Assembly (NCBI GenBank): GCA_024278345.1
Contig: JAJRTK010000371.1
Coordinates: forward strand, 1 to 20,558
Direction of reading: 5' to 3'
Source: a bacterium
GTDB lineage: Bacteria > CSSED10-310 > JAJRTK01
Length of the DNA: 20,558 nt
The translations under genes and the position numbers were made by a program. This document shows positions 1,642 through 20,239 of this stretch, piece after piece. The notes beneath the pieces were generated by a model. That model was not told the DNA's origin. It was given only the letters and a program-made list of their open reading frames with translations, and did no database searches. Numbering within the stretch: position 1 is the stretch's first letter; each line of letters starts with the position of its first letter.

Positions 1642-3210
1642 ATGAACCAGCATCAGCGACTCGACAAAAGCCCGGCCTGGCTCACCACTCTCCTTGCCGC
1701 CACTCTCCTCTACGCAGCTCCGCCCGCCGGCGCCGCGGAATGGACTTGCACCCGCGGGGACGGGTCCGCCTGCACGGGGCAGGAGCTGGGCGATCCCGGC
1801 ACTTTCAAGCAGATCCTGGTGGTGCCCACGGGGTATGAGCCCACGGAGAAAGCTCAGTTCTTCGCCGATGCCGAGAGCCTCCGGCTGAACATGTCCGATC
1901 TTCCTGGCGACACGCTGTACAGCGAGGTTTACCGCGACCGCCTCCTCTACCTGGCCTACTGGGTGCCAGGCGGTCCCTTGAGCTCGGACACGGCGGCATT
2001 TGGTGGCGCGATCATCGAGCACCCCATCCGGGATCGGGCCCTGACCATGGACCAGGATGCGCTCTATTCCAAGGTGTCGGAGATTCAGGGAGCCGAAATC
2101 CCCCAGCTGGCGCCCTGGGCCGTTTTGACCCTTTTTAACAGCCCTGATACCGGGGCTACGGCGAATGCGACGCCGCCATCCTACACGCGGCGTTCCTATG
2201 GGATCGCCCGAATCACGGCTGGTTTTCTTGCCAGTAACTACGTCCCCACCCACGAAGTGGCCCATGCCTCCTTGAGCTTCGTGGACGAATATGTGGAAGG
2301 CGGCTTCGAGGATGTAGATATCCGGCTTTTCGACATTCTGACGCCTTTGGCTCTGTACAGCGGCAAGATGGCTTCTCTACAGGCGGCGGTGGGGGATCTT
2401 CTTGGCGTTTATGACATCAACGTCAGTGAGATCCTGGTTTCCGGCGCGGACAACATGGCCCTCCGCCAATACCCCGCTACAGTCGATAGTGGCCTCCCCA
2501 CGGAGACCTACGAATGCGAAGGGGGCTTCTTCTTCGGAAAGGGCACCTTCCACGTGGCCGGCGACAACATCATGAACGGGAACCGTGTCCAGTCTTGTGC
2601 CGAAGATGGTTTTGGCTACACCCATTCCCTGTCTCAGGCACGGGTCGTGGATACAGCGTTCGGAGACGGCACGGCGGGCCGCGCCAATGATCGCCTCCGC
2701 ATCGCGGGACCTGTGGGGGACTGGGCCCTGGATTTCGGGGAGACGACCACGGTCCTCATCTACGACGGCGACAAGAATCACCGGTGGCAACCCACGAAGA
2801 GCTACGACGTGCAGGTGGGTTGGTATGAGACCGTGCTCGACATCTGCTATGAGAGCGGGATTCCCTACCCCTGCCTGAAAGAGGTTTGGAAGAGCTTCCA
2901 AAAGAGTGTCTCCCCGACGGAGCAAGTACTGGAGCTCAAGACGAGCAAGCTGTATGGGATCGCGCGGACGGTGCAGAACCTGGTCTGCAACTTGGGTCTC
3001 GGCGACCTTGGAGAGATCGATCTCTGCACCCTTACGGTGGATCAGATGGCCGACGCCTTCCTGCCGACGTTGAAGTTCTACATGCCCTACCAGCCGGTGG
3101 AGATGGCGCTCTCAGGGTCATTCAGGACCTATTACTGGCGGTTTCGGACCTTTAACGGCACCTACAGGAGTGGCTGGACTGGCTGGAGCTCCTTCTACCG
3201 CGCATTCTAG
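1642..3210 (+). CDS. Secreted M64-like zinc metallopeptidase
   Basis: The 522-residue product begins with a Sec-type signal peptide (basic start, hydrophobic WLTTLLAATLLYAAPP, likely cleavage after AGA near residue 31). The active site is H204-E-V-A-H208, followed by D215-E-Y, the same HExxH...DEY spacing as peptidase family M64 (IgA-peptidase type). A downstream EGGFFFGKGTFHV...NIMNG block near residues 294-313 fits the family's conserved region and Met-turn. Cysteine pairs (for example C-T-R-G-D-G-S-A-C) suggest a disulfide-bonded extracellular protein. The C-terminal third (about 350-522) looks like beta-rich accessory sequence. ATG 1642 was chosen because GAAGAAGGA lies 9 bases upstream and the -24/-12 promoter at 1580-1595 fits it; ATG 1615 is the alternative. 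Degradation of extracellular protein is the likely role, with unknown substrate. Confidence 0.75.
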   Translation: MNQHQRLDKSPAWLTTLLAATLLYAAPPAGAAEWTCTRGDGSACTGQELGDPGTFKQILVVPTGYEPTEKAQFFADAESLRLNMSDLPGDTLYSEVYRDRLLYLAYWVPGGPLSSDTAAFGGAIIEHPIRDRALTMDQDALYSKVSEIQGAEIPQLAPWAVLTLFNSPDTGATANATPPSYTRRSYGIARITAGFLASNYVPTHEVAHASLSFVDEYVEGGFEDVDIRLFDILTPLALYSGKMASLQAAVGDLLGVYDINVSEILVSGADNMALRQYPATVDSGLPTETYECEGGFFFGKGTFHVAGDNIMNGNRVQSCAEDGFGYTHSLSQARVVDTAFGDGTAGRANDRLRIAGPVGDWALDFGETTTVLIYDGDKNHRWQPTKSYDVQVGWYETVLDICYESGIPYPCLKEVWKSFQKSVSPTEQVLELKTSKLYGIARTVQNLVCNLGLGDLGEIDLCTLTVDQMADAFLPTLKFYMPYQPVEMALSGSFRTYYWRFRTFNGTYRSGWTGWSSFYRAF

Positions 3211-5218: not shown

Positions 5219-6424
5219 ATGCCTCACATCCAGGACTTGACCGTCAAGAACTACCGGGTGCTCCACAACATCACACTGAAGGGCCTGCAGCCGCTCAATG
5301 TCGTGCTTGGTCCGAACGGCTGTGGGAAGTCTACGCTCCTCGACGCACTGGGCTTTCTTGGCGAATGCCTCACTGTGGGCGTACGCAAGGCGCTGGAACC
5401 GCGCGGAAGACTGGAGGAGCTTCGCTCCCGCAGGGAGTCGGGACCGCTTGTTATCCAACTGAAGTACCGAGAGTCCGAGTTTGGCGTCCCCCCAAAGAAG
5501 CGAACGCCACTCATCACCTATCACCTGGAGATCGACGAGGATCAGCGCCGCCCGATCATCGTGCGCGAGTTCCTGCGATGGACTCGGGGAAGTGGCGGCA
5601 AACCGTTCAACTTTCTAGATATCACTCGGGGTGTGGGGACGGTCATCACGGGAGAGATGCCGGAACAGACCGACCAGCGCCGACCGGTGACGCTCGACGA
5701 TGTGACCATGCCCGCCATCGCAACGCTGGGCCAGCTCGCTGAAAACCCTCGAGTCGCCAGCTTGCGGAGGTTCATCGGTAGCTGGTATCTCTCCTACTTC
5801 GTGCCCGACCAGGCACGGCAAGTGCCTGGAACAGGGGCTCAGGAGCATCTCTCGCGCACGGGGAAGAACCTGCCCAACGTGGTGCAGTACCTCAGCGAAA
5901 TGCACGGAGAAGTCCTGAGAGAGATCCTGATCCGGATGGCCGCGCGCATTCCCGGTCTCGAGCAGGTCACCTCCGAACAGACGATCGATAACCGGCTCGT
6001 ACTGCGTTTCAAGGACGGTCCATTTCAGCATCCTTTCCTCTCCAAGTACGTCTCGGATGGAACATTGAAGATGTTCGCCTACCTGGTGATGCTCATGGAT
6101 CCTGAGCCACCGGCACTCCTCTGCATCGAGGAGCCCGAGAACAGCCTGCATCCAAAGTTGCTCCACGTGCTGGCCGAGGAGTTCCGCGCCCATGCGCAAG
6201 GAGAATTCGGGCAGCAGCAGACCCAGGTCCTCGTCTCTTCCCACTCGCCCTACTTCATCGACGCGCTGCAACCGAAAGAACTCTGGGTGATGGAGAGATC
6301 GACGAACGGCTTCTCGACAATAGCCCGCTCCGACCGGCTGAAGGGCATCCCGGAGTTCATCGTGGAAGGCGCTTCGCTCGGCGCCCTCTGGTTCGAAGGT
6401 CAGTTTCGGCGGGGGAACCCCTGA
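5219..6424 (+). CDS. AAA ATPase (AAA_21/OLD-like, RecF/SMC-type fold)
   Basis: The 401-residue ATPase has an ABC/SMC-type nucleotide-binding site split by a long insert. Walker A is G31-P-N-G-C-G-K-S-T39; a signature-like S-D-G-T-L-K-M lies near residues 281-287; Walker B is L-L-C-I-E-E-P-E-N (E304/E305) followed by S-L-H-P; the switch histidine is H342 in S-S-H342-S-P-Y-F. This is the AAA_21 / overcoming-lysogenization-defect type, common in phage defence. It is cytoplasmic with no membrane segment. GGGGGAGG lies just before ATG 5219, inside the end of the upstream remnant. Its stop overlaps the next start (TGATG at 6422-6426), so the two are translationally coupled and probably form one complex. 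The ATPase-plus-TOPRIM-like layout resembles PARIS (AriA/AriB) in plan but not in family. Defence is inferred, not shown. Confidence 0.8.
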   Translation: MPHIQDLTVKNYRVLHNITLKGLQPLNVVLGPNGCGKSTLLDALGFLGECLTVGVRKALEPRGRLEELRSRRESGPLVIQLKYRESEFGVPPKKRTPLITYHLEIDEDQRRPIIVREFLRWTRGSGGKPFNFLDITRGVGTVITGEMPEQTDQRRPVTLDDVTMPAIATLGQLAENPRVASLRRFIGSWYLSYFVPDQARQVPGTGAQEHLSRTGKNLPNVVQYLSEMHGEVLREILIRMAARIPGLEQVTSEQTIDNRLVLRFKDGPFQHPFLSKYVSDGTLKMFAYLVMLMDPEPPALLCIEEPENSLHPKLLHVLAEEFRAHAQGEFGQQQTQVLVSSHSPYFIDALQPKELWVMERSTNGFSTIARSDRLKGIPEFIVEGASLGALWFEGQFRRGNP

Positions 6425-7023
6425 TGCAGGTGGAAATCTATGTGGAGGAGCCTTCGGCCAAGGCGGCGCTCGAACTTCTCGTGCCGAGGATCATCGGCGA
6501 AGGACACGACTTCAAGGTCCACACCTTCCGCAACAAGCAGGAGCTCCTGCGGGAGATTCCTAAGCGGCTGCGTGCGTACGCACGGTGGATTCCTGATGAC
6601 TGGCGCATCGCGGTGCTCGTAGATGAAGATCGGCAAGACTGCCACGAACTGAAGGCGCGGCTCGTTCGGGCAGCCACAGACGCCGGCATCGGGCAGCGAG
6701 TCTTGAACCGCATCGTGGTCGAGGAACTGGAAGCGTGGTTCTTCGGCGATCTCGAAGCCCTACGGACGGTCTATCCGCGGCTCCCACCCACGCTCTCCAA
6801 GCGTGAGAAGTACCGGAACCCAGACAGCATTCGCGGCGGCACATGGGAAGCTCTGGATCACCTCTTGCGGAAGGCTGGATACAAGGCGGGTCTGATCAAA
6901 ACGGCAAATGCGGCACTGGTCGCCGCTCACATGGACCCAGAACGGAACACGTCCCACAGCTTCCGCGTTTTTCGGAAAGGGCTTCGCCGACTCGTTGGCG
7001 GCGTCGAAGGCACAGGAGGTTAG
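6424..7023 (+). CDS. DUF4276 family protein (TOPRIM-like), partner of the AAA ATPase
   Basis: The 199-residue protein has the layout of DUF4276: an N-terminal strand with conserved acid (I-Y-V-E8-E-P-S-A), a central V-L-V-D67-E-D69-R-Q-D-C-H-E-L-K corresponding to a TOPRIM D-x-D, then V-V-E-E-L-E-A-W-F-F-G-D near 98-109, and a C-terminal S-F-R-V-F-R-K-G-L. TOPRIM folds bind Mg2+ and often cleave or join nucleic acid, so a nuclease effector gated by the ATPase is a reasonable guess. All acidic positions expected for a metal site are present, so the protein seems intact although the upstream member of the operon is broken. The ATG at 6424 overlaps the ATPase stop by one base. No ribosome site beyond the coupling is needed. 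Confidence 0.75.
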   Translation: MQVEIYVEEPSAKAALELLVPRIIGEGHDFKVHTFRNKQELLREIPKRLRAYARWIPDDWRIAVLVDEDRQDCHELKARLVRAATDAGIGQRVLNRIVVEELEAWFFGDLEALRTVYPRLPPTLSKREKYRNPDSIRGGTWEALDHLLRKAGYKAGLIKTANAALVAAHMDPERNTSHSFRVFRKGLRRLVGGVEGTGG

Positions 7024-17431: not shown

Positions 17432-17472
17432 AAAGTCCACAATCCATGGCCGCTCAGGCCTGTAATCATTTC

Positions 17473-17495
17473 GTCACTCGTGACAACCCCGTCAC
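17473..17495 (+). promoter_or_regulatory. GTCAC/GTGAC sites, putative enhancer for the M4 peptidase
   Basis: Three half-sites lie together: GTCAC (17473-17477), GTGAC (17480-17484) and GTCAC (17491-17495). The last two form CGTGAC-N6-GTCAC, the dyad also found at 1455-1471 before the other secreted peptidase. It lies 139 bases upstream of the -24/-12 promoter, a normal position for a sigma-54 activator site. AT-rich DNA between 17500 and 17530 could allow looping, but no perfect IHF site was seen. Confidence 0.55.
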
Positions 17496-17633: not shown

Positions 17634-17649
17634 TGGCACATTCCTTGCT
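17634..17649 (+). promoter_or_regulatory. Sigma-54 (-24/-12) promoter of the M4 peptidase
   Basis: TGGCACATTCCTTGCT matches the core sigma-54 consensus TGGCAC-N5-TTGCW at every defined base, with GG and GC 12 bases apart. The predicted transcript start is about 17660, leaving a leader of about 50 bases that contains the ribosome site GAGGAG before ATG 17714. Sigma-54 promoters need an ATP-driven activator, and a candidate binding site lies upstream at 17473-17495. Confidence 0.7.
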
Positions 17650-17713
17650 CTGGTGAATGGCGTCTTTCGCTTTCTAGTTTGGAAACGAGCCCGAGCAACA
17701 TCGAGGAGAAGTG

Positions 17714-20239
17714 ATGCTCATGAACGGTAGTCGGATGCTCAAGCGTTTTTCGGCCATTTTCGTGGGAGTGGCGATGGCAGTCATTCCCGCCACTTCGGCA
17801 TTTGCTGGTTTCAAGCCTGAAGACGCGCAGTCTCGGGCCCTGGCGAACATGGATGTTCAGCAGGTCAGCTTTGATCAAACAGGCGTTCCGCGCTTCCTTA
17901 GAGGATCGCTGGGACAGATCACACCGGAGACGGCCGCGGCGGATGCTGCACGACTGCTAGAAGGAATGGCGACGACATTCCGCGCCACGGGGCGCGAGGC
18001 TTTTGTGGCCAGGGCGGTTCAAACCGACAAGCTGGGACAGACCCACGTAAGGCTCAGCCAGTATTACCGGGGACTTCCGGTTTTCGGCGGCGACCTTGTC
18101 GTCCATTCACAGGCTGATGGAAGCGTCTACGCCATCAACGGCAGCTACCCGTCCGCCGATGGTGTTGCCGAAACTCCGGCATTGCGGTCTCGAGAGGCAA
18201 TGCAGAGTGCATTTCGCAGTATTCCCGATGGCCAAATGGTGACGAAGCCTGAGCTTCAGTACGCAGTTGGCCGGGATGGCAAGATGTACCTTGTCTGGGC
18301 AGCCGACATCGCTTCCGAGTCCAAAGCGGGTCCCCATCTGGATCGCGTTTTCATCGACGCCACGACGGGCGAGCAGGTCGCCATCGCTCCAAAAATCCTC
18401 ACCGCCAAGAGCTGGAAGACCTACACGGCCAATAACGGCACGTCGCTCCCGGGTTCGTTGGTTCTTACCAACAACCAAAGCACCAGCGACCAGGTGATTC
18501 AGGCCATCCACGACCATACTTCCATCGTTTACGACTACTATTCTGGCGTGCATGGCCGCGATTCTTACAATGGCGCTGGCGCAACCATCAAATCCACGGG
18601 CCACTACAAGAGCGGCTACGTGAACGCTTATTGGAACGGTTCCCAGATGGTTTATGGTGATGGTGACGGCACCAATTCGGGACCGCTGGGCGATGCCCTC
18701 GACGTCGTAGCTCACGAACTGACTCACGCGGTCACCACCAACACGGCGAACCTGGCCTACCAGAACGAGTCCGGAGCTCTCAACGAGGCATGGTCGGACA
18801 TCATGGGCGCCAGCGTCGAGGCTTACAGCGACGGAGCCGTCTCCGCCAATACGTGGAAGCTCGGCGAAGCGACGTGGACCCCCGGAACCTCCGGTGACGC
18901 ACTTCGCTATATGAACGATCCAGCCACCGACGGTTCCAGCACCGATTACTACCCCGACCGCAACTACCAGAATTGCTCGCCCAACTCTAGCAATGACTAC
19001 TGCGGTGTCCACACGAATAGCGGAATCGCGAACCTCTGGTATTACATGCTGGTTTCAGGCGGAACCCATCCCCGGGGCAAGACTTCTATCAACGTTTCCG
19101 GAATCGGCATCACCAAGGCTCGCGCCATTGCCTACCGGGCCCTGGCCAACTATATGACCTCCAACACGACTTTCCAGGGCGCACGCGATGCGACCACCCA
19201 GGCAGCCAATGACCTCTACGGTTCCACTGAAGCTTCCGCGGTCAACGCGGCATGGGATGCCGTAGGAGTTCCTGGCGGAGGAGGCGGCGGCGGCGGCGGT
19301 GGCTCCACCCTGCAGAATGGTGTGCCCCTCTCCGGGCTTTCCGGATCCACCGGTGCCCAGGACAACTACACCATGGACGTGCCTTCCGGCTCCAGCAATC
19401 TTAGCTTCGCAATCTCCGGTGGAAGCGGCGATGCTGACCTCTACGTCAAGTTCGGTAGCGCTCCCACGACTTCCAGCTACGACTGCCGCCCCTACAAGAA
19501 CGGCAACAGTGAAACTTGTTCCTTCGCCTCACCCTCCACGGGAACCTGGTACGTGATGGTTCGAGCCTATTCCACCTACTCTGGTCTGACGCTCACCGGA
19601 AGTTACAGCGGTGGCGGTAACCCGACTCCGACGCCGGTTCCCCCGACGCCGACACCGGTTCCCTCCAACACGGCCCCCACGGCGAACTTCACCTCCAGCA
19701 CCGCGGATCTCACCGCCAGCTTCACCAACACGAGCTCGGATCCCGATGGAAGCATCTCCAGCAGTAGCTGGAACTTCGGTGATGGCGCGACCTCTTCGGC
19801 CACAAGCCCGAGCCACACTTACTCGGCGGCTGGCACCTACTCGGTGACCTTGACGGTGACGGATAACAAGGGAGCCACGGACACCATCTCCAAGAGCGTG
19901 ACCGTGACGGCGCCGCCCTCTGGCGGAAACTGCGGCGGAACAAGCTACGCGGGCTCCTTGAGTGGCTCCGGCCAGAATGCTTACGAGCCTCAGGACGGCT
20001 ACACCTACCAAGGTTACAAGTACAAATACTACACGGGTGGCGTGAGCGGCGATCTTGAAGGCCCGGGAAGCGCGGACTTCGACCTCTACCTCTACAAGTG
20101 GAGTGGATACTGGAAGAAGGTTGATAGCTCTACCAGCGGCAGCTCGACGGAGAGCGTCAGCAGCAATTCTTCGGGCTACTACGCCATGAAGGTCTACTCC
20201 TACAGCGGAAGCGGCGGCTACACGCTGTGTGTCCAGTAA
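17714..20239 (+). CDS. Secreted M4 (thermolysin-family) metallopeptidase with PPC and PKD domains
   Basis: The 841-residue protein has a signal peptide (basic NGSRMLKR, hydrophobic core, cleavage near A-F-A). An FTP/PepSY propeptide region (about 45-225; Y-Y-R-G-L-P-V-F-G-G) normally inhibits and folds the enzyme and is then removed. The M4 catalytic domain (about 230-515) has zinc ligands H334-E-L-T-H338 and E358 (in N-E-A-W-S-D), general base E335, and proton donor H433 in G-V-H-T-N-S-G, all intact. A polyglycine linker near 521 leads to a PPC domain (about 530-630), a P-T-P-T-P-V-P linker (about 637-650), a PKD domain (about 653-735; W-N-F-G-D-G) and a final PPC-like domain to the end. PPC domains are often cleaved during secretion. 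GAGGAG lies 5 bases before ATG 17714; GTG 17711 and ATG 17720 are alternatives. Confidence 0.95.
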   Translation: MLMNGSRMLKRFSAIFVGVAMAVIPATSAFAGFKPEDAQSRALANMDVQQVSFDQTGVPRFLRGSLGQITPETAAADAARLLEGMATTFRATGREAFVARAVQTDKLGQTHVRLSQYYRGLPVFGGDLVVHSQADGSVYAINGSYPSADGVAETPALRSREAMQSAFRSIPDGQMVTKPELQYAVGRDGKMYLVWAADIASESKAGPHLDRVFIDATTGEQVAIAPKILTAKSWKTYTANNGTSLPGSLVLTNNQSTSDQVIQAIHDHTSIVYDYYSGVHGRDSYNGAGATIKSTGHYKSGYVNAYWNGSQMVYGDGDGTNSGPLGDALDVVAHELTHAVTTNTANLAYQNESGALNEAWSDIMGASVEAYSDGAVSANTWKLGEATWTPGTSGDALRYMNDPATDGSSTDYYPDRNYQNCSPNSSNDYCGVHTNSGIANLWYYMLVSGGTHPRGKTSINVSGIGITKARAIAYRALANYMTSNTTFQGARDATTQAANDLYGSTEASAVNAAWDAVGVPGGGGGGGGGGSTLQNGVPLSGLSGSTGAQDNYTMDVPSGSSNLSFAISGGSGDADLYVKFGSAPTTSSYDCRPYKNGNSETCSFASPSTGTWYVMVRAYSTYSGLTLTGSYSGGGNPTPTPVPPTPTPVPSNTAPTANFTSSTADLTASFTNTSSDPDGSISSSSWNFGDGATSSATSPSHTYSAAGTYSVTLTVTDNKGATDTISKSVTVTAPPSGGNCGGTSYAGSLSGSGQNAYEPQDGYTYQGYKYKYYTGGVSGDLEGPGSADFDLYLYKWSGYWKKVDSSTSGSSTESVSSNSSGYYAMKVYSYSGSGGYTLCVQ

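Follow-up and report, generated by a model that had tools for sequence, protein, structure and literature searches.

Do two near-identical dyads, each preceding an exported peptidase gene on one contig from an uncultured phylum, mark a common regulon, and if so, what kind of activator would read them? The window (the whole 20,558-nt stretch analyzed) carries dyad 1, CGTGACTGCCCGGTCAC, at positions 1455-1471 (core GTGAC-N6-GTCAC at 1456-1471; a putative site for an enhancer-binding protein, EBP) and dyad 2, CGTGACAACCCCGTCAC, at 17479-17495 (core 17480-17495), neither assigned to a strand. As the first-pass annotation had reported, the two are alike at 14 of 17 bases, and each lies ahead of a plus-strand -24/-12 (sigma-54) promoter, TGGCGTGAGATTTGCT at 1580-1595 and TGGCACATTCCTTGCT at 17634-17649, respectively; the distances it gave (109 and 139 bp) are those obtained by subtraction, and correspond to gaps of 108 and 138 bp. 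An extra dyad with one mismatch, GTAATCATTTCGTCAC (17462-17477, likewise without strand), adjoins dyad 2, 156 bp ahead of the M4 promoter. Both promoters have GG at -24 and GC at -12 within TGGC-N7-TTGC, as do the orthologous promoters described below, the N8 spacing first given for this element being the sole measurable detail that was wrong. The original 17-bp motif with its CCC center was too narrow, and generalizes to GTGAY-N6-RTCAC (GTGAYNNNNNNRTCAC), of which dyads 1 and 2 are the two perfect copies in the 20.6-kb window.

The assignment of the two downstream genes to M64-like and M4 zinc peptidases is clear for the second and weak for the first. The M4 (thermolysin-type) metallopeptidase (17711-20239, plus strand) is exported, matches PF01447 and PF02868, and carries an FTP propeptide together with PPC and PKD domains. 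The gene behind dyad 1 (1642-3210, plus strand, 522 aa) starts at an ATG at 1642 behind AAGGA, with a second in-frame ATG at 1614, and encodes an exported putative zinc peptidase with HEVAHASLSFVDEY. Its resemblance to M64 lies in the HExxH..DEY motif, so that the label “M64-like” is a weak one given by motif: Pfam returned no match for this protein, PF09471 (Peptidase M64) included, and an ortholog from a related genome (G003, see below) reached PF09471 only at an E-value of 0.17, at HELAHASLNFLDEY. The two orthologs are 48-49% identical and keep the HExAHASL.F.DEY segment. The predicted structure of the window protein was unusable (pLDDT 33), and its PDB sequence matches were dismissed as repeat-protein noise. 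Elsewhere in the window (5219-7023), an AAA_21 ATPase gene is followed by one for a DUF4276 protein, a pair that we take to be of the sort found in defence-like loci.

A scan of the whole assembly (6.06 Mb, 550 contigs, 88% complete), as the first-pass annotation had proposed, yielded a third and a fourth exported peptidase gene with this arrangement. On contig C550, a perfect dyad (GTGACGCAATTGTCAC) lies 173 bp and a second one with one mismatch (GTGACTAATAGGTTAC) 110 bp ahead of TGGCCTGGTTCTTGCT, the promoter of an exported M43 metallopeptidase, while on C270 a one-mismatch dyad (GTAATCCAAGAGTCAC) precedes by 85 bp the promoter TGGCTCGGATCTTGCT of an exported trypsin-like peptidase. A paralog of the latter (70% identical; contig C3, locus L447, 1000-1500) has TGGCACGATAACCGCT, only scattered GTGAC/GTCAC half-sites and a poor -12 element, and may have decayed or come under different control. 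Genome-wide, strict sigma-54 sites numbered 162 (88 in the control) and perfect dyads 19 (4 for the reversed control); four of these 19 are copies of one repeat and nearly all others outside promoters lie in ORFs. The repeat, with GTGACTTGCGTATCAC, occurs less than 500 bases from contig starts (L187 13-28, L189 34-49, L191 492-507 and L193 29-44), and is probably a repetitive element that causes breaks in the assembly. In matrix scoring, the gap between 15.4 and over and 11.2 is partly circular, as the matrix includes sites found by its predecessor, and weight was therefore placed on consensus counts and on the matrix trained on this genome and applied to G003.

Two weaker candidates raise the question of how far the regulon extends: GTGACGGATTGTTCAC, 121 bp ahead of TGGTACGAGCCTTGCT at a non-exported macrolide-type glycosyltransferase gene (C328), and GTGACCAATCGTTCAC, 294 bp ahead of TGGCGTGATCATTGCT at a gene for a small exported CarboxypepD_reg protein (C104). 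These would fit a wider regulon of the same activator, covering the secretome or secondary metabolism with the exopeptidases as one part, and natural product genes are known to be under sigma-54 control (PMC7910581). A perfect dyad with a perfect promoter has so far been found only before peptidases, however, and we consider this wider scope a reasonable possibility that falls a little short of an even chance; it would extend an exopeptidase regulon rather than exclude it. The initial proposal of one EBP governing an exoprotease regulon holds at its core, given the M43 and trypsin-like genes and the G003 orthologs, but its restriction to exoproteases sits less well with the candidate site at a non-exported glycosyltransferase.

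Is the arrangement conserved? In G003, a JACPHN01 MAG from the same phylum as the window and another family, the promoters of the M4 and M43 orthologs keep both the dyad and the -24/-12 element, whereas the M64-like ortholog has neither upstream. The M4 ortholog (58% identity) shows a perfect dyad (GTGATTGACCGATCAC) 120 bp ahead of TGGCACATGACTTGCA. At the best M43 ortholog (53%), three dyads (GTGATTCCCGAATCAC, GTAACCCCCGCATCAC and GTGACGCTTTCGACAC; one perfect, two with one mismatch) stand ahead of TGGCACGCTTCGTGCA. Two more M43 paralogs of this genome share GGGACNNATCCGTCAC, 165 bp ahead of a -24/-12 element. Relative to the window, the perfect G003 dyads have C changed to T in one arm and G to A in the other, paired changes as expected of a dimer site. 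When searched across eight genomes of the phylum, the combined gapped dyad and promoter pattern recovered only the G003 M4 promoter besides the two window sites, with none in the controls. In an unbiased list of 92 promoter-like sites from G003, near-dyads were as frequent upstream as downstream (3 vs. 3), two of the three upstream ones standing before M43 genes; as there is no overall excess, the G003 evidence lies in the peptidase promoters. Judged from these sequences, the dyad is a real regulatory element, conserved in one relative.

Which protein would bind it? Sigma-54 (RpoN) polymerase requires an EBP (PF00158, with a GAFTGA motif), and the genome encodes 27 strong EBP matches, which constitute the candidate regulators; most of the ones read through contain GAFTGA. 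A dyad at the promoter of the regulator's own gene, as first suggested, was seen at none of the EBP genes examined. Across the peptidase genes, the dyads show the layout of EBP upstream activating sequences, which are shared by co-regulated genes, tend to occur in tandem and lie at some 80 to 250 bp from the promoter, and we consider it highly likely that GTGAY-N6-RTCAC is the upstream activating sequence of one sigma-54 EBP that drives an exopeptidase regulon. We infer binding, activation, the signal and the identity of the activator as a single protein from the elements, their association, the G003 orthologs and the GAFTGA-bearing EBPs of the genome. Under this model, EBP dimers, alone or in tandem, would bind the dyad at 85 to 220 bp upstream and would loop to a sigma-54 RNA polymerase held closed at -24/-12, whose complex they would open by hydrolyzing ATP. 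The M64-like, M4, M43 and trypsin-like endopeptidases, which are unrelated and secreted, could in this way be turned on together, presumably for protein scavenging. The earlier argument from a difference of about three helical turns between the two window distances fails: the distances (85 to 220 bp) show no common helical phase (Rayleigh p about 0.86), and looping at such length can tolerate its absence.

The dyad might instead be the operator of another dimeric regulator (CRP/FNR-type, GntR-type or other) that modulates these promoters, with the EBP using different, unseen sites. Its GTGA..TCAC halves do look like those of CRP sites, and EBP sites can be degenerate. CRP half-sites are spaced as GTGA-N6-TCAC, however, while the halves here are GTGA-N8-TCAC at all sites, and the CRP/FNR arrangement TGTGA-N6-TCACA is thus lacking. 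In addition, the sites repeat in tandem ahead of -24/-12 promoters, and they lie 85 to 220 bp upstream, a typical place for the activating sites of sigma-54 promoters (PMC4641369). This makes such an operator unlikely, and activation by an EBP remains our preferred reading of the dyad.

How often would such pairs of dyad and promoter arise by chance? Within the window, the two strict TGGC-N7-TTGCW sites are each paired with an upstream dyad, and the dyad pattern with up to three mismatches gave 8 matches vs. 2.9 expected; 200 first-order Markov simulations averaged 0.06 perfect dyads, and never produced two of them or a dyad-promoter pair. Genome-wide, three strict -24/-12 sites had a perfect dyad in the 300 bp ahead of them, vs. 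0.13 expected (p-value 3.5e-4), two of these pairs being the window's own, from which the hypothesis was formed, and the C550 M43 pair being independent of them. Among the 107 strict sites read (the more than one-third of all strict sigma-54 sites that lie on contig C322 and later being only partly covered), a dyad with no more than one mismatch lay upstream of 5 vs. 2.2 expected (p-value 0.08), and downstream, as a control, of none. These five were all among the 26 strict sites outside long ORFs, with 0 of the 81 inside (Fisher p-value 0.0006), and all belong to the four peptidase genes, two of which are the window's own. Most strict promoter-like sites fall in ORFs, and are probably false. 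That the two window dyads are a coincidence, as one might argue from the symmetric 10-base core having 19 copies genome-wide, most of them within coding sequence, is very improbable, given the simulated windows, the independent third member (M43) and the weaker fourth (trypsin-like), and the M4 and M43 promoters of another family with their paired base changes.

Looking beyond this regulon, G001, another genome of the window's phylum, carries GGGTCA-N5-TGACCC 87 to 167 bp before the sigma-54 promoters of four genes (5 matches vs. 0 in the control; -24/-12 elements TGGCATAATGTTTGCT, TGGCACGATATTTGCT, TGGCACAAAAATTGCC and TGGCATGAGAATTGCC at loci L427, L432, L439 and L441). The motif is in tandem in three of the four, at least three of which encode exported proteins, and the set is a second, separate sigma-54 regulon. 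M4 genes in two Thermoanaerobaculia MAGs and one other Acidobacteriota MAG have a -24/-12 element upstream, and the GTGAY dyad is absent there. A GGGT-N9-ACCC dyad, close to the G001 motif, is found in the two Thermoanaerobaculia genomes instead: three copies 131, 105 and 75 bp upstream of a first M4 gene, one upstream of a second, and two 92 and 51 bp upstream of an M43 gene (the M4 and M43 loci concerned in these MAGs being L042/L435, L043/L424 and L321). It is tempting to speculate, if only tentatively and with more doubt than confidence, that secreted M4 and M43 peptidases have long been under sigma-54 in Acidobacteriota-like phyla, and that the dyad and the activator recognizing it were exchanged between lineages and the sigma factor was kept. 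If true, such an exchange would mean that a whole regulon was rewired at its activator with its sigma factor unchanged, and lineage-specific dyads would offer a case for a change of EBP specificity while targets and sigma factor stay.

Exoproteases are public goods that set the rate of protein mineralization in soil and groundwater, and their control is little known in uncultured phyla; the dyad together with the -24/-12 element can be used to search for co-regulated exoenzymes and lends itself to direct tests. We are probably dealing with an exopeptidase regulon of the known sigma-54 and EBP kind, in an uncultured phylum. A literature search matched GTGAY-N6-RTCAC to no described EBP site. 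The nearest published EBP motif found, the FlrA/FleQ-type yGTCA-N6-TGACr (DVU2894, PMC4641369), also has TGAC/GTCA halves six bases apart, but in the opposite sense (GTCA-N6-TGAC vs. TGAC-N6-GTCA here), and its known targets are flagellar. The Nla28 site of Myxococcus xanthus, CT(C/G)CG(C/G)AG (PMC9765219), likewise differs from the dyad, and the targets here are exopeptidases. In the main text of Francke 2011 (PMC3162934), “protease” appears once and “peptidase” never, neither as a target, and Acidobacteria are unmentioned. The architecture is nonetheless that of the Desulfovibrio vulgaris EBP regulons (PMC4641369) and of Nla28 (PMC9765219), with TGGCACG-N4-TTGCT-type -24/-12 elements, EBPs that combine PF00158 with GAFTGA, and, as in these NtrC-family regulons, sites about 100 bp upstream and often in tandem (tandem EBP sites are described in PMC9765219). 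The probable peptidase regulon also shares a general theme, the service of sigma-54 to exported functions, with the view that this factor controls the exterior of bacteria (Francke 2011, PMC3162934).
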